From the NCBI RefSeq assembly GCF_000443165.1, contig NZ_ATJV01000001.1, forward strand, positions 248,001 to 312,000: a DNA stretch of 64,000 nucleotides, in the 5' to 3' direction. This stretch comes from Thauera terpenica 58Eu. GTDB lineage: Bacteria > Pseudomonadota > Gammaproteobacteria > Burkholderiales > Rhodocyclaceae. Shown in pieces: positions 1,992-14,668 of this stretch. A model generated the notes under the pieces. It was not told where the DNA came from, searched no databases, and saw only the letters and a list, made by a program, of their open reading frames with translations. The position numbers were made by a program, and so were the translations under genes. The stretch's first letter is position 1. Each line of letters begins with the position of its first letter.

Positions 1992-2763
1992 CGCCATCCT
2001 CGGCGCTCACCGCCTCGGCCAGATAGGCCTCGGACTGGGTCTGCAAATAGCGCGCGATGCTGCCATCGGCGTGCAGCGCGGTCAGCCGCAGATCGATCTC
2101 GGGCAGCAGCGCCTCCAGCTCTGAACCCTTGCGTACCGCCACATGGTAGTACTCGGTGACCAGCATCTGCGGCAAGGCTTCGAGCACTTCGTCGTAGCCC
2201 AGACGGCGGCTCTGCAAACGCCCGCTGTCGCGCCCGATGGGCATGAAATCGATGCGCCCGAGCACGAGCTTGCGCACATTCTGGCGGCCGCTGGAAACGC
2301 GCTCCACTTTCAGCGCGGTTTCGGCAAAGCGGTCGAAACGCTCGCCGAAGCTGTCTCCCAACAGCAGCCCCACGGCACGCCCGCGCAGGTCTTCCCAGTC
2401 GTTGAACACAAAGCGTCGATCGCGGCGCACGAACAGCACGATCGGGTCAGCCACGAGGTAATGCGCGGAAAAGGCAAACTGCTGCTCGCGTTCGCGGTTG
2501 CGGTAGGCGGCAACGACGATATCGGCGCGGCCTTCGCGCACTTCCTGCAGGCAGCGCTTCCAGTTACCGAAAGCTTCGAGACGCACGTTCAGGCCGAGCT
2601 CGGCGAACAGCTCGCGCACCAGGGTGGGCGCGAGCCCGCGCAATTTTCCATCGGCCACCCAGGACACCGGCGGATAGGCAGGGTGGCCGCAAGCGATCAG
2701 CTCACGCCCGTGCGCCTGCAGCGCGCAGCCGCACAACAACAGTGCAGCCAGCAGGCGCTTCAT
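1975..2763 (-). CDS. Periplasmic solute-binding protein family 3, likely signal receptor
   Basis: A 262-residue protein with an N-terminal signal peptide ([19 protein letters not shown]) and a bacterial extracellular solute-binding family 3 fold, with [16 protein letters not shown] near the N-terminus and [17 protein letters not shown] after it. It sits between the response regulator (4-nt ATGA overlap) and the hybrid kinase (17-nt overlap). No ABC permease or ATPase is adjacent, so its likely job is to hand a ligand signal to the kinase, as TorT does for TorS in Escherichia coli, although TorT belongs to a different binding-protein family. The cysteine in the signal region (GCALQAHG) is a weak lipobox at best. 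The ligand cannot be read from the sequence. Confidence 0.9.
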
Positions 2764-3485
2764 GCGCGCGGACGGGGTGTCGGGCTGAATCGGTAACCGG
2801 CTCCATGCACGGTCAGGATGACCCTGGGGTTGGCCGCATCGTCGCGCAGCTTGCGCCGCAGGCGACCAACGAGCACGTCGACGGTGCGATCACTCGGCAC
2901 CCATTCGCGGTTGCGGATCTGATCGAGCAAGGCATCCCGACTCATGGTCTGCCCGGGGTGGGCGAGGAAGGCGCGCAGCAGCTGAAACTCGCCTTCGGTC
3001 AGCGCACACAGCTCACCGTCCTCGAAACACAGCTGGCGACCATCGTCGTCCAGCGCACAGCCCTCGCACACTGGCACCACGACCCGCGCTGGCGGGGGGC
3101 TGTGCAGGCCCGCGTGGCGCACGCGACGGATCAGGTTCTTGGCACGCGCCAGGATCTCACGCGGGTTGAAGGGCTTGGTGACGTATTCGTCGGCGCCGCA
3201 TTCGAGGCCGATGATGCGCTCGACCTCGTCCTGCCGTCCGGACACCAGGATGATGCCGACGTCCGAGCGCACCCGCAGCTCGCGCGTCAGCGTCAGGCCA
3301 TCCTTGCGCGGCAGGCGGATGTCGAGCAATACCAGATCGACCATCTCGGCAGCCAGTTGCTGCTCCGCGTCCTCGGCCGTCGCGGATTCGCGCACCTCAT
3401 AGCCCTCGGCCACGAAGTAATTGACCAGGCAGGCGCGAGTCACCGCATCGTCATCGACGACAAGAACCTTCGCATCGAGAGGCAT
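2760..3485 (-). CDS. OmpR/PhoB-family response regulator, TorR-like
   Basis: A DNA-binding response regulator of 241 residues. The receiver domain has the acidic pocket VLVVDDD, the phospho-acceptor Asp55 in LVLLDIRLPRKDGLTLTREL and the switch Lys in YVTKPF. The segment SDVGIILVSGRQDEVERIIG strongly resembles TorR. A winged-helix effector domain follows, with GEFQLLRAFLAHPGQTMSRD and RTVDVLVGRLRRKL. ATG 3485 is chosen because receiver homology begins there and an AAGG lies 5 nt upstream; the frame could extend to 3554 but that segment does not look like protein. It is the first gene of the RR / binding protein / kinase operon and overlaps the next gene by ATGA. No torCAD reductase genes are visible nearby, so the regulated pathway is not necessarily TMAO respiration. 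Confidence 0.93.
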   Translation of the reverse strand: MPLDAKVLVVDDDAVTRACLVNYFVAEGYEVRESATAEDAEQQLAAEMVDLVLLDIRLPRKDGLTLTRELRVRSDVGIILVSGRQDEVERIIGLECGADEYVTKPFNPREILARAKNLIRRVRHAGLHSPPPARVVVPVCEGCALDDDGRQLCFEDGELCALTEGEFQLLRAFLAHPGQTMSRDALLDQIRNREWVPSDRTVDVLVGRLRRKLRDDAANPRVILTVHGAGYRFSPTPRPRA

Positions 3486-3684
3486 GGACCTTGACTCCAC
3501 CCACAGACCTTGAGGCCTTGCACGCTGGGAAACTGGAAACTGGACACTGGACACGCTGGAAAACCGCAGTTTGAAGCTAACACAGCCTCAAAGCCGGAGC
3601 TTGCCCGAACGTGACATTAATTTGACCTATGACGACATTTGCGCGCCGCCAGACGCCCTATCCCCTTCTCGCTCACCTGCAATG

Positions 3685-3773: not shown

Positions 3774-5450
3774 TCAGCTCTGAACATCCTTGAGCTTCAC
3801 GCTCGGATCAGGGTTATTGATGATCTTCTCCAGTTCCCTGATCACGCTGTCTCTCTTCAGCAGCCGCCTGATCGTATTGACGATCATCAACAGGATCACG
3901 ATCGAGAACGGGGCGCCGCCAATGATGGTGCCGGTCTGGACCGTATCGACGACGGCGCTGCCACCAAGAGTGAGCAGCACGGTGGTGACCGATGCGATGC
4001 TGAACACGAGGATGACGCGGAACCACGGACCGGACTGCTTGGGCGCCGAAACGAAATCAGCGAGCGCATACGTTCCCGCGTCAAGCGAGGTCACGTAGTA
4101 AGTGGCCACCAGTATCGTCGCTACCACCATCAGCAAGCTACCGACGATGGGCATCGCGTCCAGCATCACGAACAGCCCGCTGGAAACGTCGCTACTGACC
4201 GCGGCCGATACCGCACGACCGCCCAGGTCGTCGTAATAGATCGCGGCAGAGCCGATCACGCCGATCCACAGCATGACGATCAGTGACGGGATGATGGTGA
4301 CGCCAATGACGAACTCACGCAGCGTGCGGCCGCGCGAAATGCGGGCGATGAAGCCGGCCACAAAGGGCGAGAACGCGATCACCCAGCACCAGATGAACAC
4401 CGTCCACCAGCCGTTCCAGCTGTCCTTCCAGGACGCCAGCGTCGTCGTCGTGCTGGGCGCATCGGTCCAGAAGCTCATGGCGACGAAATTCGCCGCATAG
4501 GCGCCAAAGCTCTCGGTGACGTTGGAGACAATGAACAGCGTGGGGCCAAAGACGAAGACCGCAACGACCAGAACGATGCTCAGCACCGAGTTCGTCTCGC
4601 TGAGGATGCGCATGCCCTTGTTGATGCCGCAGAAGGCAGAGATCGCTGCAACGCTGCCGAAGCCGGCGATGACGACCAGCCAGAGTGCGGGGCCGGAAGT
4701 AAGACCGGTGAAGGAGGTGAGTCCCGACGAGAATTGCATGGCCGCAAAACCGAAGGAGGTGGACAGGCCGAGGATGGTGGCCATGATCGCCAGCAACTCG
4801 ATGACCACTCCGGCACCACCGCGCGACCATTCCGGCAACATGTCGACAGTGGCTTCGCGGAAGGTCAGGGTCTTGCCCAGGTTGTGGTGCGAATAGGCCA
4901 GACAGACCGCCACCACGCAATACATCGCCCAAGCCGTGAACCCCCAGTGGAAGTAGGACCAGACCAGGCCGTTGCCCGCGAGGTTGGTGCCCAGCGTCTG
5001 CACCACCGGGCTTTCCTCACGCAGCATGATCGGCTCGGCCACCGACCAGAAGATCAGGCCGATACCCTGGCCACAGGCGAACAGCATCGAGTACCAGGCA
5101 AAGTTGCTGTACTCGGGCTTCGCATTGGGGCCGCCCAGACGCACACGGCTACCGATCTTGCTGAAGATGAGCCAGGCACACACCGCGACGGCAAAGAGCG
5201 AATACAACACGAACAACCAGGTGAACTGGCCGGTGACGAAGGTGCGCAGCGTGGAAATGACGGACGCAACACCGTCCGGATTCACCAGTACGCTCACAAC
5301 CAGCGAGATGATGGCCAGCGGCGGCAGGAACTGGATGAGCAATCTGCTGATGTGCGGCAGATCACATCCAGTGAAGCGTGGAATTGTCACAGGATCGGAG
5401 GGTGCTCCCGCACTCACCGACTTGTTGTGCTCCGTTTTTTTGCTTGTCAC
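3774..5450 (-). CDS. BCCT-family transporter (betaine/carnitine/choline type)
   Basis: A 558-residue secondary transporter of the inner membrane with about 12 hydrophobic segments. The family signature is seen in WTVFIWCWVIAFSPFV followed by GFIARISRGRTLREF, and in the N-terminal part as YFHWGFTAWAMYCVVAV. The BetP-type tryptophan box (WWISW) reads WCWVIAF here, so the substrate may differ from classic glycine betaine carriers. The GTG start at 5450 is supported by AGAGGTGG 7 nt upstream. Its position beside a creatinine-degradation cluster suggests an N-methylated substrate such as betaine, sarcosine or creatine; that is inference. No long osmosensory C-terminal tail like that of BetP is apparent. 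Confidence 0.92.
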   Translation of the reverse strand: MTSKKTEHNKSVSAGAPSDPVTIPRFTGCDLPHISRLLIQFLPPLAIISLVVSVLVNPDGVASVISTLRTFVTGQFTWLFVLYSLFAVAVCAWLIFSKIGSRVRLGGPNAKPEYSNFAWYSMLFACGQGIGLIFWSVAEPIMLREESPVVQTLGTNLAGNGLVWSYFHWGFTAWAMYCVVAVCLAYSHHNLGKTLTFREATVDMLPEWSRGGAGVVIELLAIMATILGLSTSFGFAAMQFSSGLTSFTGLTSGPALWLVVIAGFGSVAAISAFCGINKGMRILSETNSVLSIVLVVAVFVFGPTLFIVSNVTESFGAYAANFVAMSFWTDAPSTTTTLASWKDSWNGWWTVFIWCWVIAFSPFVAGFIARISRGRTLREFVIGVTIIPSLIVMLWIGVIGSAAIYYDDLGGRAVSAAVSSDVSSGLFVMLDAMPIVGSLLMVVATILVATYYVTSLDAGTYALADFVSAPKQSGPWFRVILVFSIASVTTVLLTLGGSAVVDTVQTGTIIGGAPFSIVILLMIVNTIRRLLKRDSVIRELEKIINNPDPSVKLKDVQS

Positions 5451-5841
5451 TTTTGTCCACCTCTCGATTATTTAGTTTTTGGGCTTGGTAAAAATCAGCA
5501 CGCCACCGGCGCCCTTGCAGCGAACACCTGCCCTTGAGCGACCGCGCCTTGCGGCGGGTCTGGCGACCTCTTTTTAATCAAACAAACTTATTGCTCAATA
5601 AGAAAAAGCCGTCGAGCACAGTATGAAAATGTCGGGATTCCTCGACTGTCCTGATACCGCCACATTTTTTCGCGTTATCGACATGGGGGACGGGGCGCAG
5701 ATGCGCCGGAAGCGCAGGCGCAGGGCACGCAAAATGGCCCTGAGCACGCCGATAAGGGGCGCGCTCAAGGCCAGGGGTCAAGCCGCTAAGAGTGTTACAG
5801 AGTCAAACCAAGCTGAAGCCCGTCATAGGCGTGAACTGCGC
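5451..5841. other. Intergenic region upstream of the BCCT gene
   Basis: About 390 bp without a convincing gene, more AT-rich than its surroundings (for example AATCAAACAAACTTATTGC at 5577-5595). It must contain the BCCT promoter and the 3' end of the bluB transcript. A GTCGAG/CTCGAC inverted pair lies at about 5611-5648. A 67-codon open frame on the minus strand (5578-5781) has no recognisable domain and was not accepted. No clear sigma-70 or sigma-54 promoter was identified. Confidence 0.5.
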
Positions 5842-6615
5842 TCAGCGCAGCGTAGACGGTTGCGCACGCACCGCGTCCAGCAAGCCTTCGCCCGCTTCGT
5901 CCGCCGCGCCCTGCCAGCCGTCGAAATGCAGCAGCGCGGGCAGCGCCATGCGCTCGATCCAGCCGGCCGCTTCCAGTTCGGGGCGGGCGTGGAAGTCGCG
6001 CACGTAGCCGATGCACAGGTAGGCGATCGGGATGATCTCTTGCGGGATGCCAAGCGCCGCGCGCAGCGCCGGCGGGTGCAGGATGCTCACCCAGCCCACG
6101 CCCAGGTTCTCCGCGCGCGCGGCGAGCCACAGGTTCTGCACCGCGCACACGGCGCTATACACATCCATCGCGCCGATGTGGGTGCGGCCGATCACCACCG
6201 GACCGTGGCGGCTGCGATCGCAGGTGACGCAAATATTGACCGGCGACTCGAGGATGCCTTCGAGCTTGAGATTGCGGTAGGTGGCACGCTTGTCCGCGTC
6301 GAACATCTGCTCGGCTTCAGCGTGGGCGGCAAGGAAGTCGGCATGGATCTTCGCGCGCACTTCGCGCGAGCGCACCACGATGAAATCCCAGGGCTGCATG
6401 AAGCCGACCGAAGGCGCGTGGTGGGCGGCGGTGAGCACGCGCGCGAGCACCTCGTCGGGGATAGGGTCGGGCAGGAATTCGCCGCGCACGTCGCGGCGGG
6501 TGTGGATGGCGCGATACACCGCATCGCGTTCGGCGGCGCCGAACTGCGGATCAGTCTGGAAGCGCGCGTGGTCGTCGTGAAGCGGCGCGCAATGCGCCGG
6601 GGTCGGGCTGCTCAT
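5842..6615 (-). CDS. bluB: 5,6-dimethylbenzimidazole synthase BluB
   Basis: A flavin-destructase enzyme of the nitroreductase fold that converts reduced FMN to 5,6-dimethylbenzimidazole, the lower ligand of cobalamin, in the cytoplasm. The 257-residue protein has the BluB N-terminal flavin-binding motif AVYRAIHTRRDVRGEF, the conserved HHAPSVGFMQPWDF and GVGWVSIL. The ATG at 6615 follows AAGGGG. It lies alone downstream of a cobalamin riboswitch (6675-6847), which supports the assignment independently. A generic nitroreductase is the alternative, but the motif set and riboswitch make BluB much more likely. No other cobalamin biosynthesis gene is adjacent. Confidence 0.95.
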   Translation of the reverse strand: MSSPTPAHCAPLHDDHARFQTDPQFGAAERDAVYRAIHTRRDVRGEFLPDPIPDEVLARVLTAAHHAPSVGFMQPWDFIVVRSREVRAKIHADFLAAHAEAEQMFDADKRATYRNLKLEGILESPVNICVTCDRSRHGPVVIGRTHIGAMDVYSAVCAVQNLWLAARAENLGVGWVSILHPPALRAALGIPQEIIPIAYLCIGYVRDFHARPELEAAGWIERMALPALLHFDGWQGAADEAGEGLLDAVRAQPSTLR

Positions 6616-6644: not shown

Positions 6645-6667
6645 ACAGCCGCCGACCAGACGGCTGT
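6645..6667 (-). promoter_or_regulatory. Hairpin between the cobalamin aptamer and bluB (expression platform)
   Basis: Minus-strand hairpin with arms ACAGCCG and CGGCTGT (6661-6667 and 6645-6651 on the plus strand), directly downstream of the riboswitch P1 and about 30 nt before the bluB start. What follows (CTTCTGCTCG) is pyrimidine-rich but not a true T tract, so it could be a weak terminator or part of a translation-blocking structure. The mode of control cannot be decided from sequence alone. Confidence 0.5.
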
Positions 6668-6674
6668 ACACAAG

Positions 6675-6847
6675 GCTTCGAGGCCGGCCTTCCGGCTGCG
6701 GATCATCTCATCCGGACGCCTTCCCGGCCCTTGCGAGCCAGTGGCTGGGCGAACCTTGCCCGGACAATCCCCTTCACGGCGCTGGGCGCGCGGTGGGTTT
6801 GCACCACCTTTCCGATTCTCCCGCGCCAGGCGCGGGCACCTCGAAGC
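6675..6847 (-). promoter_or_regulatory. Cobalamin (B12) riboswitch upstream of bluB
   Basis: On the minus strand the leader has the hallmarks of the cobalamin aptamer in order. A perfect 9-bp P1 joins GCTTCGAGG (6847-6839) to CCTCGAAGC (6683-6675). The upstream part contains GAGGTGCC and GGTGGTGCAAACCCACC. The conserved core GCCACTGG (around 6738-6745) and GGGAAGGCG (6725-6717) follow, and then a B12-box-like AGCCGGAAGGCCGGCC. The aptamer ends 60 nt before the bluB start. The expected behaviour is repression of bluB when adenosyl- or hydroxo-cobalamin is plentiful. Confidence 0.93.
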
Positions 6848-6989
6848 AAACGAGGGCGCAAGCTTAGCGGCAAACCTGCGCGCGCGCCAAAAGGTGAACA
6901 CTGCACAGGAGTGCACCCGAAGGCTCGCCACTTACGGCGCTGGCGGCGTCAGTCCCCTGCACTCACAGCGCCCAGCGCCACAACAACGC

Positions 6990-7933: not shown

Positions 7934-7991
7934 GCGCGCGCATCAGGATGGTAGAAGTGGCGCAGCGAGGCGATTTGCCTGTCCACGCCAC

Positions 7992-8010
7992 ACACTTGTC
8001 TGGATACGTC
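7992..8010 (-). promoter_or_regulatory. Operator-like motif shared with the creatinase and purU upstream regions
   Basis: The plus-strand sequence ACACTTGTCTGGATACGTC matches the motifs at 12189-12208 and 14482-14501 in the pattern CACTTGnnTnnAnACGnC, and shares the 12-base run CACTTGTCTGGA with the purU site. It is centred about 133 nt upstream of the metF start, in the gap after the symporter gene. Binding by the cluster's GbdR-like regulator is inferred. Confidence 0.5.
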
Positions 8011-8069
8011 GCTCACCGACCTCGCGGGCGAGCTCTGCGGCAGTCGCCACCGCGCTCGCCCGGCCTCGA

Positions 8070-9524
8070 TCAGGCGCGGCGAACCTGCACCTGGGCGCTG
8101 CCCCGGGTCGCCATCGACACCACGAAGTAGCACACCGACGATGCCAGGCAGCCGATCAGCGGGCCCTCGACCCAACCCATGTCGCTCGCCAGCATCAGGG
8201 TGCCGCTGGTGAGGAAGCCAACGATCATCGCCGCCAATGCCCCCGGCACCGTGCCCTGCCAGAAGGTCGAGATGAACACAGGACCGATCATCGCCGCGAG
8301 CAAGGTGCCCGAACCCAGGATGCCCAGCCACGACAGCATGAACGGCGGTGCGTACATCATCATGAACAAGCCAAGCAGGCCCAGACCGACCACCGCCAGG
8401 CGATTGATGGAGAGCGCACGCGGCGAGTCGTGCTGGGCATCCTTGAACAGCGCCAGCCGGATGTCGTGCGAGGTGGCCGAGGCGACCGTGTGCAGCATCG
8501 AGTTGGCCGTGGACTTCATCGCAAAGATGATGAACAGGGTGATGATGCCCTGCACCGCAGGGTGCATGAAGGTCTGCAGATACATCGGCATGGCCTGGTC
8601 TGCTTCAGCCAGTGCAGGCCCATAGGCGCGCATGTACAGGCCGACGATGGGGATCAGGCTCAGCACCCCGCCCATCAGCGCCACATACACTCCGACCCGG
8701 TGCATCTTCACGTCCGGGCGGAAAGCCAGGAAGCGCACCGCCATGTAGGGCAGGACCGCAGCAAACAGGAAGGCGTACGGCAGCACGAAGAACACCGAGC
8801 TCTTGCTGTCACCGTAAGGCGCAGCCGTTTCCGGATTGAGCAGCGAGGGATTGATGTCGTTGAGTCGGGTCACCCAGTCGCTCAGGTCGACGCTGAAGAA
8901 CATCTGCCCGGTGATGACCAGGGCGCCCACGACCATGCCGCACACCATGATGGTGTCGGTCCAGGCCACGGCCGCCAACCCACCCCACATGGTGTAGATG
9001 ATGATGATGGAGATCATCATCCACGCGCTGGTGGTCATGTCTATGCCCAGCCACGACGCGCCCAGCATGCCGACCGCCTTGATCTGGCTGACCATGAACA
9101 CCATCAGCAGCACGATGGTGATGATGGCGGCCACGCCTTGCAACAGACGCCCGCCGTCACCGCCGCCATGGATTTGCGCGATGTATTCGGGAATGGTGTT
9201 GCTGCCCATCTTGAGCGCGCGCTTCTGCATCGAGTTGGCGAAGAACAGCACGGCAATCATCATCGCCGGGGCAAAGAAGAAGTTGCCCAGGACTTCGATC
9301 GCGCCGAACTCATGGGCCACGCCGGGCGAGCCCATGAAGCCCCATCCGCTGAAGCCGGTGGCGACGATGGTGCTCGCGCCGACAAAGGGGCCAAGACTTC
9401 GGCCAGCGAGCAGAAAGCCACCTTCGTCGCTTTCACTGACGGTACGCGACGACATCGCGCCCACGCCTATCATCACCGCGAAGGTGGCGATCATCAGCAC
9501 CCAGTTGAGTGTGGTGTAGTCCAT
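8070..9524 (-). CDS. Sodium:solute symporter (SSS/SLC5), candidate creatinine/creatine permease
   Basis: A 484-residue inner-membrane symporter with about 13 hydrophobic segments. SSS landmarks are FLLAGRSLGPFVGASTIVATGFSG-like sodium-site segments near residues 35-55, GGLAAVAWTDTIM and PYMAVRFLAFR. ATG 9524 is chosen because AAGGTGAG lies just upstream; the frame is open to 9587. A 37-codon membrane peptide gene ends 4 nt before it. The next genes upstream encode creatininase and creatinase on the same strand, so creatinine or creatine is the most economical substrate. That is context inference; SSS sequence alone does not define a substrate. Confidence 0.92.
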   Translation of the reverse strand: MDYTTLNWVLMIATFAVMIGVGAMSSRTVSESDEGGFLLAGRSLGPFVGASTIVATGFSGWGFMGSPGVAHEFGAIEVLGNFFFAPAMMIAVLFFANSMQKRALKMGSNTIPEYIAQIHGGGDGGRLLQGVAAIITIVLLMVFMVSQIKAVGMLGASWLGIDMTTSAWMMISIIIIYTMWGGLAAVAWTDTIMVCGMVVGALVITGQMFFSVDLSDWVTRLNDINPSLLNPETAAPYGDSKSSVFFVLPYAFLFAAVLPYMAVRFLAFRPDVKMHRVGVYVALMGGVLSLIPIVGLYMRAYGPALAEADQAMPMYLQTFMHPAVQGIITLFIIFAMKSTANSMLHTVASATSHDIRLALFKDAQHDSPRALSINRLAVVGLGLLGLFMMMYAPPFMLSWLGILGSGTLLAAMIGPVFISTFWQGTVPGALAAMIVGFLTSGTLMLASDMGWVEGPLIGCLASSVCYFVVSMATRGSAQVQVRRA

Positions 9525-9528
9525 GATC

Positions 9529-9642
9529 TCACCTTCCGCCCTGACGGTTTTCACGCGAAGAACGCAACCACGCCGTACCGAACGCAATCGCCAGCATCAC
9601 TGCATTGAGCAGCAAGAAAGTATCAACCACCCAGGAATTCAT
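9529..9642 (-). CDS. 37-residue symporter small accessory membrane protein
   Basis: A very short gene, MNSWVVDTFLLLNAVMLAIA followed by FGTAWLRSSRENRQGGR, with one central transmembrane helix and a basic C-terminus. ATG 9642 is preceded by GAGGAG at good spacing. Its stop codon lies 4 nt before the symporter ATG, so the two are almost certainly translationally coupled. Small one-helix proteins encoded directly before SSS symporters are a known arrangement (symporter small accessory proteins); a role in assembly or activity of the carrier is inferred. It is easily missed by length-filtered gene callers. Confidence 0.8.
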   Translation of the reverse strand: MNSWVVDTFLLLNAVMLAIAFGTAWLRSSRENRQGGR

Positions 9643-9871
9643 GTCTGTCTCCTCATTATTTTGGTTCGACACCGGCTTGGGCCGTGTCGACCGACCGAGA
9701 CTCCGTCGCCGCCTTGGGGAGAACGCGGCGACGGGTTCGGCACAAAATCTCCCGCGCGCGGGAGCAAACCTCGATCAATGGGTGTTTTTTCTCCTGTCAT
9801 GAGCGGCGCGCAGCGCGCAGGGCTCACCCGCGACCAGACATCGCTACAGGTGAATCACTGGACAAGCCAGG

Positions 9872-9891
9872 GCCGGCGCCGAAGCACCGGC
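9872..9891 (-). terminator. Stable hairpin just after the creatininase gene
   Basis: Eight base pairs (one G-U) closed by a UUCG loop, minus-strand reading GCCGGTGC-TTCG-GCGCCGGC, starting 8 nt after the creatininase stop. It lacks a T tract, so it may be a 3'-end stabilising structure or a rho-assisted end rather than a full intrinsic terminator. Confidence 0.45.
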
Positions 9892-9898
9892 ACGAAGC

Positions 9899-10669
9899 TC
9901 AGTCGAAGGCGGTGGCCAGCTCGTGGCTGATGCCGTCGACGCAGACTTTCAGCAGGGTTTCGCCGTGTTCGGCCGAAGCCCGCTTCGCCGAGGACAGGCA
10001 GCCCGAGGCGGGGGTCCATTCCGGCTTGATGGGAAAGAAATCGTAGGGCGGGAACTCGGCCGGGGCGTGGTCGCAGACCTGCTCCATATCGACCAGGTGG
10101 GGATGCAGGTGCAGCATGAGCGAGGTCTCGAGCACGCCTCCATGCTCCACTGCCCAACCGGGAAACTCGCCCTGGTAGATGGCATCGATCGCGTCCTGGG
10201 TGACGAAGTCCCAGTACGACAGGACTACCGTGGAGAAATCGCGAATGCCGTCCCAGCGCAGCTCGCGCTGGGCAAGGTCGACGCCTTCGACGATGAAGGC
10301 GGAGTTCTCGTAGTGACCATTGACCAGCACGGTCTTGCGTACGCCGTGGCGCGCAAGCTCCTTCAGCACGTCCTTGATCGTCGAGGTCACGGTCTGCCCA
10401 TCCAGGCTGGTCGTGCCCGGCATATGGTTTCCGCCGCCGCTCTTTTGCTGCGATTTGTAGCCGTAGGCGATGGCCGGCGCGACCAGGGCATCGATGCGCG
10501 CAGCGACCCGCTCGGAAATGGCAGTCGGCAACAGCACGTCCGGGTTCATGGACATGTGCGGGCCATGCTGCTCGAGCGCGCCGACCGGAATCAGCACCGG
10601 CGTCTTGCCGTCGCGGACCTTGGCGTCGTACACGGGCCAGGTCAGCTCGGAAATATGAACACTGTTCAT
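9899..10669 (-). CDS. Creatininase (creatinine amidohydrolase)
   Basis: A 256-residue metal-dependent cyclic amidohydrolase that interconverts creatinine and creatine (EC 3.5.2.10) in the cytoplasm. It follows the Pseudomonas putida enzyme closely. Metal-binding residues Glu33 and His35 lie in VGALEQHGPHM, Asp44 in MNPDVLLP, and His119 and Glu121 in VNGHYENS, each one position before the P. putida numbering. GYKSQQKSGGGNH and GTTSLDG are also characteristic, as is the tryptophan of LSYWDFV. It is next to creatinase on the same strand, which supports the substrate. A general creatininase-family protein (for example a mycofactocin or GTP-cyclohydrolase-like member) is far less likely. Confidence 0.95.
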   Translation of the reverse strand: MNSVHISELTWPVYDAKVRDGKTPVLIPVGALEQHGPHMSMNPDVLLPTAISERVAARIDALVAPAIAYGYKSQQKSGGGNHMPGTTSLDGQTVTSTIKDVLKELARHGVRKTVLVNGHYENSAFIVEGVDLAQRELRWDGIRDFSTVVLSYWDFVTQDAIDAIYQGEFPGWAVEHGGVLETSLMLHLHPHLVDMEQVCDHAPAEFPPYDFFPIKPEWTPASGCLSSAKRASAEHGETLLKVCVDGISHELATAFD

Positions 10670-10764
10670 CTCGTGGTCTCCTCTTCATTATTGGGCGTGG
10701 CGGATTCAGAGCGCTGAATGGCGCCCGCCGCGCTTGCCTTGAAACGTGTCCAGGGCAAGCCTGC

Positions 10765-10798
10765 GCCGGGTCAAGCCTTCACTGGCGCCTGACCCGGC
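10765..10798 (-). terminator. Hairpin after the creatinase gene
   Basis: A perfect 9-bp inverted repeat, GCCGGGTCA (10765-10773) and TGACCCGGC (10790-10798), 22 nt beyond the creatinase stop codon. No T tract follows on the minus strand. A second inverted repeat, GCTTGCC/GGCAAGC, sits at 10732-10738 and 10754-10760, closer to creatininase. Either could end or process the creatinase message; the second could instead be an operator for creatininase. Confidence 0.4.
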
Positions 10799-10819
10799 GG
10801 CGGCTGCAGCAGACTACGC

Positions 10820-12064
10820 TCAAGCCTTGATGATGTTGTGCTTCGGACCGTAGCCAAAGCCGGTGATGTTTTCCGCACCGTTCTCGGTCACGACCAGGAT
10901 GTCGTGCTCGCGGTAGCCACCGGCGCCCGGCATGCCTTCGGGCAGCATGATCATCGGCTCGATCGACACCACCATGTTCGGCTCGAGCACGGTTTCGATG
11001 TCTTCACGGAACTCCAGCCCGGCTTCGCGACCGTAGTAGTGCGACAGCACACCGAAGGAGTGGCCGTAGCCGAAGGTGCGGTACTGCAGCAGGCCGTGCT
11101 CGGCAAAGATCTCGTTGAGCTCAGCGGCGAGGTCGCAGCAGCGCACGCCCGGCTTCACCAGCTTCAGACCGGCCTCGTGCACCTTGACGTTGACCTCCCA
11201 CGCCTTCAGCGAGGCGTCGTCGACGTGGTCGAAGAACATCGTGCGCTCGAGCGCGGTGTAGTAGCCCGAGATCATCGAGAAGCAGTTCAGGGACAGGATG
11301 TCGCCCTTTTGCACCTTGCGTGTGGTCACCGGGTTGTGGGCGCCGTCGGTGTTGATGCCCGACTGGAACCAGGTCCAGGTGTCCATCAGCTCCGAATCCG
11401 GGAAGCGCTTGGCAATCTCGCGGATCATCGCCTGCGTGCCGGCCAGCGCCACTTCGTGCTCGGGTGCGCCCTCGTGCACCGCTGCGGCCACCGCTGCGCC
11501 ACCGACGTCACACACATTGGCGCCGTGCTTGATGAGGACGATTTCCTCATCGGACTTGATCATGCGCATGCGCATCGTGCCCGGGCCGACGTCGACCAGC
11601 TGAGCCGCCGGCAGCGCTGCCTTCAGCTTTTCCAGACGCTCGACCGGGATGTGGTCGAACTCCACCCCGACCCGACCCTTGTTGGGGATTTCCTGCTGCA
11701 CGGCACGGAAATAGTTGTCACGGCGCCAGTCGGTGTAGACCACGTTGTAGTCACCGAAGGTGCGACGCCAGGGTTGGCCACCATCGATGTTGGCGCTGAT
11801 CGACACCACCTTGTCCTGGGTCACGACCAGGCCGTAGGGGCGACCGAAGGAGCAGTACAGGAAGTCGCTGTAGTAGTTGATGTTGTGCATCGACGTAAAC
11901 AGGATGGCGTCGATGTTGTTGGCGGCCATGTGGGCGCGCAGCTTGGACTGGCGGTTGATGTATTCCTGGTCGGAGAAAGTGTGCTTCACCTTTTCCCCGT
12001 TCTCGATGCGCAACAGATCCTTCATCTCGCTCATCGACTTGATGTCATTGGCCGCATTCGTCAT
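10820..12064 (-). CDS. Creatinase (creatine amidinohydrolase)
   Basis: A 414-residue pita-bread-fold hydrolase (EC 3.5.3.3) that cleaves creatine to sarcosine and urea. Near-identical blocks to P. putida creatinase include NINYYSDFLYCSFGRPY, SANIDGGQPWRR, DTWTWFQSGINTDGAHNPVT and YRTFGYGHSFG. The catalytic histidine is His243, equivalent to His232 of P. putida after an 11-residue N-terminal extension. It lacks the metal ligands of related aminopeptidases, as expected. It is followed by creatininase and the symporter on the same strand and preceded by a regulator gene. No urease or urea carboxylase lies in the window, so the fate of the urea is unseen. Confidence 0.96.
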   Translation of the reverse strand: MTNAANDIKSMSEMKDLLRIENGEKVKHTFSDQEYINRQSKLRAHMAANNIDAILFTSMHNINYYSDFLYCSFGRPYGLVVTQDKVVSISANIDGGQPWRRTFGDYNVVYTDWRRDNYFRAVQQEIPNKGRVGVEFDHIPVERLEKLKAALPAAQLVDVGPGTMRMRMIKSDEEIVLIKHGANVCDVGGAAVAAAVHEGAPEHEVALAGTQAMIREIAKRFPDSELMDTWTWFQSGINTDGAHNPVTTRKVQKGDILSLNCFSMISGYYTALERTMFFDHVDDASLKAWEVNVKVHEAGLKLVKPGVRCCDLAAELNEIFAEHGLLQYRTFGYGHSFGVLSHYYGREAGLEFREDIETVLEPNMVVSIEPMIMLPEGMPGAGGYREHDILVVTENGAENITGFGYGPKHNIIKA

Positions 12065-12188
12065 CGCTTGTCACTCCTTTGGTTTCGGTCTTTGGTATCC
12101 AGCCTGCCGGTCGCACTCAAACTGCGTACTGACAAGGTGAGCCAATGCTAGAGAAGGCCGCAGGAGCAGAATTTCCGCCTGCCGACGT

Positions 12189-12208
12189 GCACTTGCGTAA
12201 AAACGACT
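12189..12208 (-). promoter_or_regulatory. Operator-like motif upstream of the creatinase gene
   Basis: The plus-strand sequence GCACTTGCGTAAAAACGACT shares CACTTG, then T, A, ACG and C at fixed spacing with the motifs at 7992-8010 and 14482-14501. It lies about 134 nt upstream of the creatinase start in the 265-bp gap after the regulator gene, a suitable place for an AraC-type activator. Confidence 0.5.
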
Positions 12209-12329
12209 TTTCCACGGATAGACGAAGTTAATGGCATCTGGCGATGTGCACGAGCCCCGTCCGGGGCACGCCACGCACAGGCTCAGGCGCGACAGGCGCG
12301 CGCCCGAGCGGGCGGAATGTCAGCCGAAA

Positions 12330-13454
12330 TCAGTGCTGCGGAGCGTTTTCGTCGAGCGCGTCAGCGTCTTCATCGCGCGCGTCGCCGTCGCCGTGCTGGC
12401 CTGAAGTGGCCTTGGCGTCCGCGGTCACATTGGCGTACCGATCGCCATCGACAGCCTGCCGGCGGCGATCGGCGCTGGGCGAAATGCCGAAGCACGCGTT
12501 GTAGCGATGGGAAAAATGCGCAAAGGAGACAAAGCCGCAAGCCATGACGATGTCGGCAATCGAGCGGTTGGTGCGGGTCATGAGCTGGCGGGCGCGCTCC
12601 AGACGCAATTGCAGGTAGTACTGGCGCGGCGTGCAGTTGAGTGTTTCGCGAAACAGGCGCTCGATCTGCCGCGCCGAGAACTGCATGTGTTTCGCGATCT
12701 CCTCCATCGTCAGCGGCTCTTCGATGTTGCACTCCATGAGCTTGATGGCTTCGACCAGCTTCGGATGCGAAGTCGCGGCCACGTCACGCAGCGCGGTTCT
12801 TTGCCGCCCCTCCGAACCCCGGCAATCGTAGAGCAGCAGCTCGGCCACCGCCGCGCCGACCCGAGGCCCGCCCTCACCCAGACCGATGAGGTGGATCATC
12901 ATCTCCACCGGCGCAATACCCCCGCTGCACGAGCAGCGGTTGCGGTCGACCTCGTAGAGCTTGGACGACACCACCAGGCGCGGAAAACGGTCGAGCAGCG
13001 AATCCATGTCTTCCCAGTGGATGGTGCTGCGATAACCGTCGAGCAACCCGGCGCAGGCCAGAAAGTAACTGCCGGTGTCCACTCCGCCCAGCGCCACGCC
13101 GTTCGCGGCCTGCGCTCGCAGCCAGCGCACGATGGGTTCGTTGCCCGTCGTCGGCAAGGGATTGGGGCCGAGCACCAGTATGGCGTCGAGCTCCATGGCA
13201 TCATCCGCCGCGCAGTCAGGGGTGATGCACACCCCTGCACTGGAGCGCACCGAGGCGCCGTTGAGCGTGAGCGTGACGCACTGATAGAGGGCTTTTCTGG
13301 CCACCGTGTTGGCAAGACGCAATGGGTCGACCACTGCACCGAAACTGATCAGCGAGAACCCGGGCACGAGCAGAAAACCAACGCGCACCGGCTCGCCTGC
13401 GCCGCGCCCGCCCCAATGGCTGACGGCTCGATCCGAGCTCGACTCCTTGTCCAA
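12330..13454 (-). CDS. GlxA/GbdR-type AraC-family transcriptional regulator
   Basis: A 374-residue regulator with an N-terminal DJ-1/PfpI-like (class I glutamine amidotransferase-like) domain, VRVGFLLVPGFSLISFGAVV to about residue 200. Its nucleophile-elbow region reads GGVDTGSYFLACAGLLDG, with no obvious catalytic Cys. A C-terminal AraC double helix-turn-helix follows, with LTMEEIAKHMQFSARQIERL and RSIADIVMACGFVSFAHFSH. This architecture matches GbdR, SouR and CdhR regulators of betaine, sarcosine and carnitine catabolism. The TTG start at 13454 is backed by AAGGAGA 7 nt upstream. It lies between purU and creatinase on one strand and is the prime candidate to bind the shared motif. The last 40 residues are acidic and low-complexity. 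Confidence 0.92.
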   Translation of the reverse strand: MDKESSSDRAVSHWGGRGAGEPVRVGFLLVPGFSLISFGAVVDPLRLANTVARKALYQCVTLTLNGASVRSSAGVCITPDCAADDAMELDAILVLGPNPLPTTGNEPIVRWLRAQAANGVALGGVDTGSYFLACAGLLDGYRSTIHWEDMDSLLDRFPRLVVSSKLYEVDRNRCSCSGGIAPVEMMIHLIGLGEGGPRVGAAVAELLLYDCRGSEGRQRTALRDVAATSHPKLVEAIKLMECNIEEPLTMEEIAKHMQFSARQIERLFRETLNCTPRQYYLQLRLERARQLMTRTNRSIADIVMACGFVSFAHFSHRYNACFGISPSADRRRQAVDGDRYANVTADAKATSGQHGDGDARDEDADALDENAPQH

Positions 13455-13564
13455 TTGCTTGTCTCCTTCCCCGCAAAGCCTCCGCTGGCGTGACGCCGCC
13501 GCGGGGCCTCGGTTTCCGTGGGATCTGGCGCCCCTGGCGGATTATTCTTGTATGTGAAAGCAGT

Positions 13565-14428
13565 TTAGATGAGAACCACCGTGCGCGTACCGTTGAGGAA
13601 TACCCTGCGCTCGAGGTGGTAACGCACCGCGCGCGCCAACGCCTGGCACTCCATGTCGCGCCCCACCGACAGTAGCTGTTCGGCACCGCCGGCATGGCTC
13701 ACGCGCTCGACGACCTGCTCGATGATAGGACCCTCATCCAGGTCGGTCGTCACATAGTGTGCGGTCGCGCCAATGAGCTTGACCCCGCGTGCGTAGGCCT
13801 GATGGTAGGGCTTGGCACCCTTGAAGCCGGGCAGAAAGGAGTGGTGGATGTTGATCGCACGGCCTTCGAGCTGGTGGCACAGCTCCTGCGACAGCACCTG
13901 CATGTAGCGCGCCAGCACCACCAGTTCGGCACCGGTCGAGTCCACGATCTGCATCAGCTTGGCTTCCTGCTCCGGCTTGGTCGCCTCGCTGATCGGCAGG
14001 TGATGGAAAGGCAGGCCATCGGCCGCCACCAGCGGACCGAGATCGGGATGGTTGGACACCACGCCGACGATGTCGATCTTCAATTCGCCAATGCGCCAGC
14101 GGTACAACAGGTCACGCAGGCAATGGTCGAGCCTGGACACCATGATCAGCACCTTCGGCCGCTCGGACAGCGCGTGCATCGCCCATTCCATCTGAAAACG
14201 CGCAGCGACCGGCTCGAAGTCAGCGCGCAGGCTTGACGGAATCACAGCAGCATCCGAACCCGGACGAAACACCGCGCGCACGAAGAAGCGCTGGCTCAGG
14301 TCGTCGTCGAAGCAGGAGAACTCATTGATGTAACAGCCGTGGCCATCCAGAAACCCCGAGATCGCCGCGACCTGGCCGGATTTGCTCGGACACGCCACCT
14401 TCAACACCCAACGCTGCTCTGCAGTCAT
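13565..14428 (-). CDS. purU: Formyltetrahydrofolate deformylase
   Basis: A 287-residue enzyme that hydrolyses 10-formyl-THF to formate and THF (EC 3.5.1.10). An N-terminal ACT domain (WVLKVACPSKSGQVAAISGF) is followed by a formyltransferase-type catalytic domain with the active-site stretch INIHHSFLPGFKGAKPYHQA and LDEGPIIEQ. ATG 14428 has AGGAGA upstream. It is divergent from the formate dehydrogenase operon and shares its promoter region. PurU homologues beside sarcosine or betaine pathways are thought to regenerate THF while releasing formate, which Fds could then oxidise. It is separate from purine genes here, supporting a catabolic role. Confidence 0.95.
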   Translation of the reverse strand: MTAEQRWVLKVACPSKSGQVAAISGFLDGHGCYINEFSCFDDDLSQRFFVRAVFRPGSDAAVIPSSLRADFEPVAARFQMEWAMHALSERPKVLIMVSRLDHCLRDLLYRWRIGELKIDIVGVVSNHPDLGPLVAADGLPFHHLPISEATKPEQEAKLMQIVDSTGAELVVLARYMQVLSQELCHQLEGRAINIHHSFLPGFKGAKPYHQAYARGVKLIGATAHYVTTDLDEGPIIEQVVERVSHAGGAEQLLSVGRDMECQALARAVRYHLERRVFLNGTRTVVLI

Positions 14429-14481
14429 GATTTTGTCTCCTCTGATTGTGGGCGCCAAACCTTAAGCCCACGCATCACGAA

Positions 14482-14501
14482 CCACTTGTCTGGAAACGAC
14501 A
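14482..14501. promoter_or_regulatory. Operator-like motif in the purU/fds divergent promoter
   Basis: The plus-strand sequence CCACTTGTCTGGAAACGACA fits the same pattern as the motifs upstream of creatinase and metF. It is centred 63 nt upstream of the purU start and about 240 nt upstream of fdsG. It is therefore best placed to control purU, but could act on both. Confidence 0.55.
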
Positions 14502-14668
14502 ACTTGGACCTGAATAATGACAACTCCGTCGATGAAGGCGAGGTATTCGCAGCTCACGCTTCAAACCCGCCTCGCCAGCGCCCCCGCCACGTCGCGCGCT
14601 GATCACGCGCGGCCGATTCGCTCACCAAGCCCCCCCGGCAAAAACACGTGACCTGAAAACGATTTGCT

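Follow-up and report, generated by a model that had tools for sequence, protein, structure and literature searches.

Genes at the locus

The window analysed here is a 64-kb stretch of the Thauera terpenica 58Eu genome (G000 below; 4,145,786 bases in 135 contigs). It carries genes for creatinine use beside a gene for an AraC-family regulator. Several of its genes are preceded by short direct repeats, which are very probably tandem operators for GbdR-type (GlxA-type) AraC activators and would belong to a creatinine/sarcosine and one-carbon regulon read by two paralogous regulators. The genes concerned are the following:

12330 to 13454, minus strand: GbdR-like (GlxA-type) AraC regulator; PF01965, PF12833 and PF00165, that is, a DJ-1/PfpI domain and an AraC helix-turn-helix (HTH) domain
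10820 to 12064, minus strand: creatinase (creA); Creatinase_N and Peptidase_M24 domains
9899 to 10669, minus strand: creatininase (crnA); TIGR04448, 360.8 bits against a cut-off of 235
8070 to 9527, minus strand: sodium:solute symporter (SSS); PF00474
6990 to 7868, minus strand: second methylenetetrahydrofolate reductase (metF paralogue); PF02219 above its cut-off, TIGR00676 at 278.6 bits, slightly below the cut-off of 293.7
13565 to 14428, minus strand: formyltetrahydrofolate deformylase (purU); TIGR00655, 306.4 bits against a cut-off of 285.95
3774 to 5450, minus strand: BCCT-family transporter; PF02028, short of the cut-offs set for the specific NCBIfam models
2760 to 3485, minus strand: OmpR-type response regulator; Response_reg and Trans_reg_C, presumed ATG start at 3485

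No NCBIfam equivalog reached its cut-off for the creatinase, so the creA assignment, as against another M24 enzyme, rests on the domains and the creatininase neighbour. The metF of the window is one of two methylenetetrahydrofolate reductase genes in the genome, the other being on contig C35. The fdsGBA genes adjoin purU, and the response regulator forms a two-component operon with a solute-binding protein (SBP_bac_3) and a hybrid histidine kinase. Just outside the window (locus L055), glyA-sda-soxB-soxA-soxG lies beside a second regulator gene; soxB (C1:240700-241917) matches TIGR01373 with 727 bits, and genes for creatininase, creatinase and sarcosine oxidase are found together. By their known functions, creatininase and creatinase would yield sarcosine, which sarcosine oxidase converts to glycine and 5,10-methylene-tetrahydrofolate (THF); PurU releases formate from 10-formyl-THF, and MetF makes 5-methyl-THF. 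A broken histidine kinase at the start of the window was considered and rejected, as an open 668-residue frame spans positions 3-2006.

A shared motif and its place in a predicted tandem operator

An earlier note on this DNA had described three intergenic sequences with one spaced pattern, lying on the same strand relative to metF, creatinase and purU at 133, 134 and 63 nt from these genes. This description is accurate. The sequences lie at 7992-8010, 12189-12208 and 14482-14501, and the pattern CACTTGNNTNNANACGNC, with at most one mismatch, matches only these three places in the window, while 100 dinucleotide shuffles of the window gave a mean of 0.26 matches and a maximum of 2, never 3. The distances are correct when taken from the start codon to the motif centre (133.5 nt for metF, 134.5 nt for creatinase and 63.5 nt for purU). 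The three genes share the minus strand; read toward them, the motif is GNCGTNTNNANNCAAGTG, and its orientation relative to the gene is identical at all three. The genome-wide scan that the note had proposed gave four exact matches, three of them inside the window, against none for the reversed control pattern. The fourth exact match (locus L004) has no partner half-site at 21 bp and is not oriented toward the following transporter gene, and was treated as a chance match.

As a literal 18-mer, the motif is poorly conserved, with one exact match in 28 other genomes of the genus. It was therefore rejected as a genus-wide marker, and a half-site model was used instead. The conserved element is the half-site core together with a tandem architecture: read toward the genes, the motif is a single half-site (GTCG-N9-AA) of the kind of tandem operator known from ArgR, GbdR and CdhR. 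The full unit runs in the order half-site, 5 bp, half-site, 21 bp, –10 hexamer, and the motif corresponds to the distal half-site at creatinase and metF and to the proximal half-site at purU. The predicted operators in the window are:

12172 to 12208, minus strand: creatinase operator; distal half-site 12193-12208 (the motif) and proximal half-site 12172-12187, 21 bp apart; –10-like TAGCAT at 12145-12150
7975 to 8011, minus strand: metF operator; distal half-site 7996-8011 (the motif) and proximal half-site 7975-7990, 21 bp apart; TACCAT at 7948-7953
14486 to 14522, minus strand: purU operator; strong proximal half-site 14486-14501 (the motif) and weak distal half-site (starting GTCA) 14507-14522, 21 bp upstream; TAAGGT at 14459-14464
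5647 to 5683, minus strand: BCCT transporter operator; CATACT at 5620-5625
3601 to 3637, minus strand: weaker tandem operator upstream of the response-regulator operon; TAGCTT at 3574-3579

Two direct-repeat half-sites of the (G)GTCG(C) type, 21 bp apart, are thus present, the distal half at purU being weak. The BCCT gene, glyA-sda-sox and the two-component operon carry sites beyond the three of the earlier note. That note had also let the motif mark a joint purU/fds upstream region; the site points toward purU, and no operator is claimed in the window for fds, crnA, SSS or araC (best tandem scores 0.6, –5.1, 3.0 and 2.3, respectively).

A –10-like hexamer follows at 21 nt in all 55 promoters listed, as judged by eye; the hexamers include TAGCAT, CATACT, TAGGAT, TACGAT, TAACTT and TAATTT, among others. 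The promoter-class labels "por" and "crn" rest on a reading of the translations and on crnA hits. A proximal half-site that ends 21 nt before the –10 hexamer would therefore overlap the –35 region, and such an overlap at a fixed distance to –10 is what we take to be class II geometry; the arrangement here suggests class II.

Held-out scans

A 16-bp half-site matrix was trained solely on sites from relatives (both creA half-sites and the proximal one of purU) and used to scan 83 kb, made up of the window and the 19 kb of contig upstream of it, for tandem matches at spacings of 18-25. The top five matches all have a spacing of 21 and the same strand: creA (29.9), BCCT (23.8), metF (22.5), the response regulator (21.8) and glyA (18.2). 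Above a score of 18 there were five tandem matches at spacing 21 versus one over 16 other spacings (15-31), and at the same cut shuffled sequence (100 rounds) averaged 0.03 such matches, never more than 1. A genome model of 64 positions, built from 55 promoters of other genomes, placed creA (E = 3.2e-8), metF (9.1e-5), BCCT (7.0e-4) and glyA (6.5e-3) at ranks 1-4 of 17 matches among the candidates scored, the next match having an E-value of 0.216. The purU site reached 12.5 bits (E = 0.66) in an earlier model that included five of G000's own sites, and the response-regulator site was listed by neither genome model.

Conservation in related bacteria

The locus was compared with 14 relatives, namely L021 (genome G072, same family) and 13 loci (L022-L034) from Thauera, Aromatoleum, Azoarcus and unclassified bacteria, in which the ortholog of the window AraC protein has ~72-83% identity. 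The creA gene lies near this AraC gene in 14/14, giving 15 promoters (L024 has two), and every one of these carries a pair of half-sites at 21-bp spacing, followed 21 nt later by TAGCAT, the proximal half-site of L026 ending in CA instead of AA. The purU gene is adjacent in 12 of the 14, and the best purU-type half-site upstream keeps 14-18 of 18 reference bases in all 12. Across the 16 creA promoters, counting the window's own, the majority base has an average frequency of 0.93 and 0.82 for the two half-sites and 1.00 for the –10 hexamer, compared with 0.55 in the upstream and 0.58 in the downstream flank; over 13 purU promoters the average is 0.69 (distal), 0.92 (proximal) and 0.91 (–10), with flanks of 0.50 and 0.57. 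Because sites were chosen by best match, these values favour the half-site columns but not the –10 hexamer. Creatinase is duplicated in L024 (11314-12552 and 18693-19931), each copy with its own operator, and creatininase in L028 (11354-12118 and 14076-14843).

The BCCT site, with CATACT, recurs before BCCT genes in L023, L026 and L162, and a metF ortholog in genome G151 (L077/L132) has the same architecture with a score of 18.5; in L077, fds adjoins metF. Response-regulator genes were found in G158, G147, G148, G152 and G025 with in-frame identities of 72-85%. A tandem site lies at most 130 nt from the gene in G158, G147 and G025 (loci L127, L128 and L163), the nearest one in G152 is ~540 nt away, and none was found in G148 at a score of 10. 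The response-regulator site is the weakest of the operator claims.

Among 29 genomes of the genus including G000, the held-out operator is present at E ≤ 1e-3 in nine (best of the other 20, 0.0065), and the window-type AraC protein, at E ≤ 1e-100, occurs in the same nine. One of these, G025, supplied no training sites and has the island complete; its tandem sites lie at creA, BCCT, the response regulator and glyA, and the held-out model has a match (E = 0.0019) before purU. Its genes run in a single row: purU, araC, [site] creA, crnA, symporter, metF, [site] ~1-kb stretch, [site] BCCT, [site] response regulator, binding protein, kinase, sarcosine-type regulator, nhaC, [site] glyA-sda-soxB-soxA-soxG.

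Some additional sites were seen at these loci. In G025, a strong extra operator (L162:17615-17651, plus strand, score 28.5) precedes the ~1-kb stretch between metF and BCCT, and a similar extra site is found at 4032-4068 of L079. The latter locus, on a contig of a metagenome-assembled genome (MAG), also carries the C-terminal half of a metF paralogue (4298-4797, minus strand) with an operator 40 bp upstream, which is either a rearranged copy or an assembly artefact; this truncated metF was left out of the counts. In the window, a cobalamin riboswitch (RF00174, 94 bits; 6665-6858, minus strand) stands upstream of bluB (5842-6615, TIGR02476), between the BCCT and metF genes. No match to bluB was found in L023, L026, L162 or L163, and the insertion is therefore not common to those relatives.

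Two paralogous regulators

The window regulator has a DJ-1/PfpI-like N-terminal domain and a C-terminal AraC HTH domain, a layout for which we adopt the group name GlxA-type, and the PDB relatives 3gra and 3oio cover its two halves. Against the GbdR equivalog NF052371 it scores 348 bits, under the cut-off of 480, compared with 658.5 bits for a GbdR of Pseudomonas capeferrum. The earlier note's description of a GbdR-like AraC regulator thus holds as a likeness; by its sequence the protein is GbdR-like, not GbdR. In a tree of 30 proteins, the window regulator belongs to a clade of 12 rows (support 100/100), whose sister is an AraC protein encoded beside creatinase in P. capeferrum (99/98, flagged for a long branch); a GbdR lies nearby in the tree. 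The sarcosine-type proteins belong to a different clade, and the second regulator of G000 is:

L055:17462-18571 = C1:246462-247571, plus strand: second GlxA-type AraC regulator, adjoining glyA-sda-sox; 305 bits to GbdR, 38% identical to the window regulator

In G072, which is a single contig, a window-type regulator is present with sites at creA, a transport operon, the crnA operon and purU, and no sarcosine-type regulator was found at E 1e-60. In the sarcosine class of sites, the proximal half-site is TGACGGATACAGGCAA or one base off in 7 of 9 sites, besides those of G000 and G151. Sites were compared with the full sarcosine class and then with the same class after its G000 and G151 members had been left out. 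Against the reduced sarcosine class, the score of the G000 glyA site is 27.2, versus 14.9 against the best creatinine class, and that of the G151 metF site is 25.1, versus 13.6 against the creatinine class. From these class scores, the two regulators seem to share one architecture with different half-site preferences. A further sarcosine-type site (L132:9418-9454, plus strand, 25.4) adjoins the sarcosine-type regulator gene of G151. The idea that glyA lies behind it was rejected, as no glyA match was found; the frames there, by eye, resemble those of a dipeptidase and a TRAP transporter.

Alternative explanations

Several results weigh against the proposed regulon or against its assignment to two regulators. 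With one mismatch allowed, the whole genome holds 14 pattern matches versus 8 for the reversed control, so the strength of the pattern lies in its exact matches and their clustering. The matrix cut of 18 was chosen after the ranking was seen. The control loci, 14 more distant ones (L035-L048; regulator identity 29-45%; 280,866 bases), hold one tandem match at spacing 21, in L037. Scoring in the genome searches was limited to the 150 top first-look candidates of each genome (out of 2561 in G000), and among these the purU site, weak as a tandem, was not listed by the held-out genome model. The response-regulator site is absent from L130/L023. Seven of the nine positive genomes supplied training sites (L022-L026, L032 and L033, from contig coordinates compared by hand), leaving G000 and G025 as the only independent positives, and since regulator and operators share one island, their co-occurrence may be joint inheritance.

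The one-mismatch counts speak for a chance likeness among GC-rich intergenic sequences, but such an origin is hardly credible given the held-out genome ranking, the exact 21-bp spacing, the conservation in relatives and the shuffles. The shuffles and the held-out scan argue strongly against chance for creA, metF, BCCT and glyA; the response-regulator site is still open to it. The shared island also means that co-occurrence is not independent evidence against the use of the sites by another factor, unrelated to either AraC protein. This, too, is very improbable, as the 21-bp direct repeats match the published half-sites of the regulator's close relatives.

How the sites are divided between the regulators is a closer matter. 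Control of all of them, metF and glyA-sox included, by the window AraC protein alone would fit the single operator architecture, the single island and the motif common to creA, metF and purU. However, in genomes G122 and G065, which have a sarcosine-type regulator, soxB is preceded by a site (16.5 and 14.2), as is purU in G122 (14.9), although the sole match to the window regulator there at E 1e-60 is that same sarcosine-type gene of G122; the glyA site, moreover, scores higher against a sarcosine class built without it. With a second GlxA-type regulator beside glyA-sox and a shared architecture, a single regulator for all sites is therefore unlikely. This second, sarcosine-linked regulator probably controls the glyA-sox site and perhaps the metF site. 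For metF, exclusive control by the sarcosine-cluster regulator is a serious contender, if somewhat short of an even chance; the likeness to the creA and purU 18-mers would then reflect a half-site common to paralogous regulators. In G151, metF lies ~6 kb from the sarcosine-type regulator gene and its site favours the sarcosine class. In the window, the margin is small: the metF site scores 14.0 against the sarcosine class without its G000 and G151 members, or 12.5 against the full class, versus 10.7 for the best creatinine class. In G025 and L078, on the other hand, metF comes immediately after the creatinine-cluster symporter gene and lacks a separate tandem site at the thresholds applied. 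The half-site scores suggest that metF fits the second regulator at least as well as the window regulator.

Discussion

The sites, their spacing, their conservation and their co-occurrence are observed, and the regulatory scheme proposed from them, in binding, activation, effectors and the division of labour, is a prediction. Two GTCG-N9-AA half-sites 21 bp apart would lie on one helix face, and a regulator bound there, with the proximal half-site ending 21 nt before –10, would recruit RNA polymerase. The window regulator would activate creA, the BCCT transporter gene and purU; its effector, to judge from the genes, is probably creatine, creatinine or a product of their breakdown. The paralogue beside glyA-sda-sox, probably sensing sarcosine, would switch on that operon through the same operator architecture; metF would be read by the sarcosine-type paralogue or by both regulators. 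Creatinine would thus pass via sarcosine to glycine, and the one-carbon unit would leave as formate (PurU) or 5-methyl-THF (second MetF). The earlier proposal of a creatinine/sarcosine regulon that also controls one-carbon disposal is partly supported, in that a regulon probably joins creatinine and one-carbon genes, with matching published half-sites, creA in 14/14 relatives, purU in 12 and co-occurrence in 9 of 29 genomes; it needs correction in that the motif is only a half-site, fds has no site and a single regulator is unlikely.

The ARG box of ArgR in Pseudomonas is TGTCGC-N6-G-N-AA, repeated after 5 bp with the second repeat usually weaker, and its spacing is variable in P. alloputida (PMC10963909). 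The half-site and the 5-bp tandem are as in the Thauera operators, whereas the targets and the regulator differ, and in Thauera the –10-like hexamer is fixed at 21 nt and the strong half-site may be distal or proximal. In P. aeruginosa, CdhR uses GGTCGC half-sites in direct repeat, separated by a 15-bp spacer and likened to the half-sites of GbdR, SouR and ArgR (PMC5806209); from the published half-site spacings, CdhR and ArgR sites therefore both repeat at 21 bp. Transcription of soxBDAG requires GbdR and SouR, and purU has been placed in such a cluster of Vibrio natriegens (PMC12093977). The Thauera system shares with GbdR, CdhR and SouR the 21-bp repeat of half-sites and a related amine catabolism, but the window regulator belongs to a separate, creatinase-linked clade, creatinase and a second metF are among the targets, and the geometry suggests class II, whereas CdhR is described as class I. 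The AraC protein beside creatinase in P. capeferrum (L035) is a 45% identical sister of the window clade, although no operator of the Thauera/Aromatoleum type was found there at a score of at least 14. In Corynebacterium glutamicum, creatine and creatinine use is under transcriptional control by AmtR (PMC8864220), a TetR-family nitrogen regulator, in contrast to the AraC activator proposed for Thauera. A literature search of open PMC papers found no publication on a creatinine regulon of this kind. The regulon appears to be real and its mechanism of a known type, with creatinase and the second metF as newly predicted targets.

For Thauera and Aromatoleum, these results predict which regulator, operator and promoter layout serve creatinine use, and they link that use to one-carbon metabolism via purU and the second metF. 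They also offer a natural case of two paralogous activators with a common operator design and partly separated half-site codes. More tentatively, and as less likely than not, we suggest that a dedicated second MetF has been drawn into the amine-catabolic regulon at the point where the two GlxA-type regulators meet, so that creatinine methyl groups might be sent on demand to formate (PurU) and 5-methyl-THF. If true, excess catabolic one-carbon units would become a methyl source.

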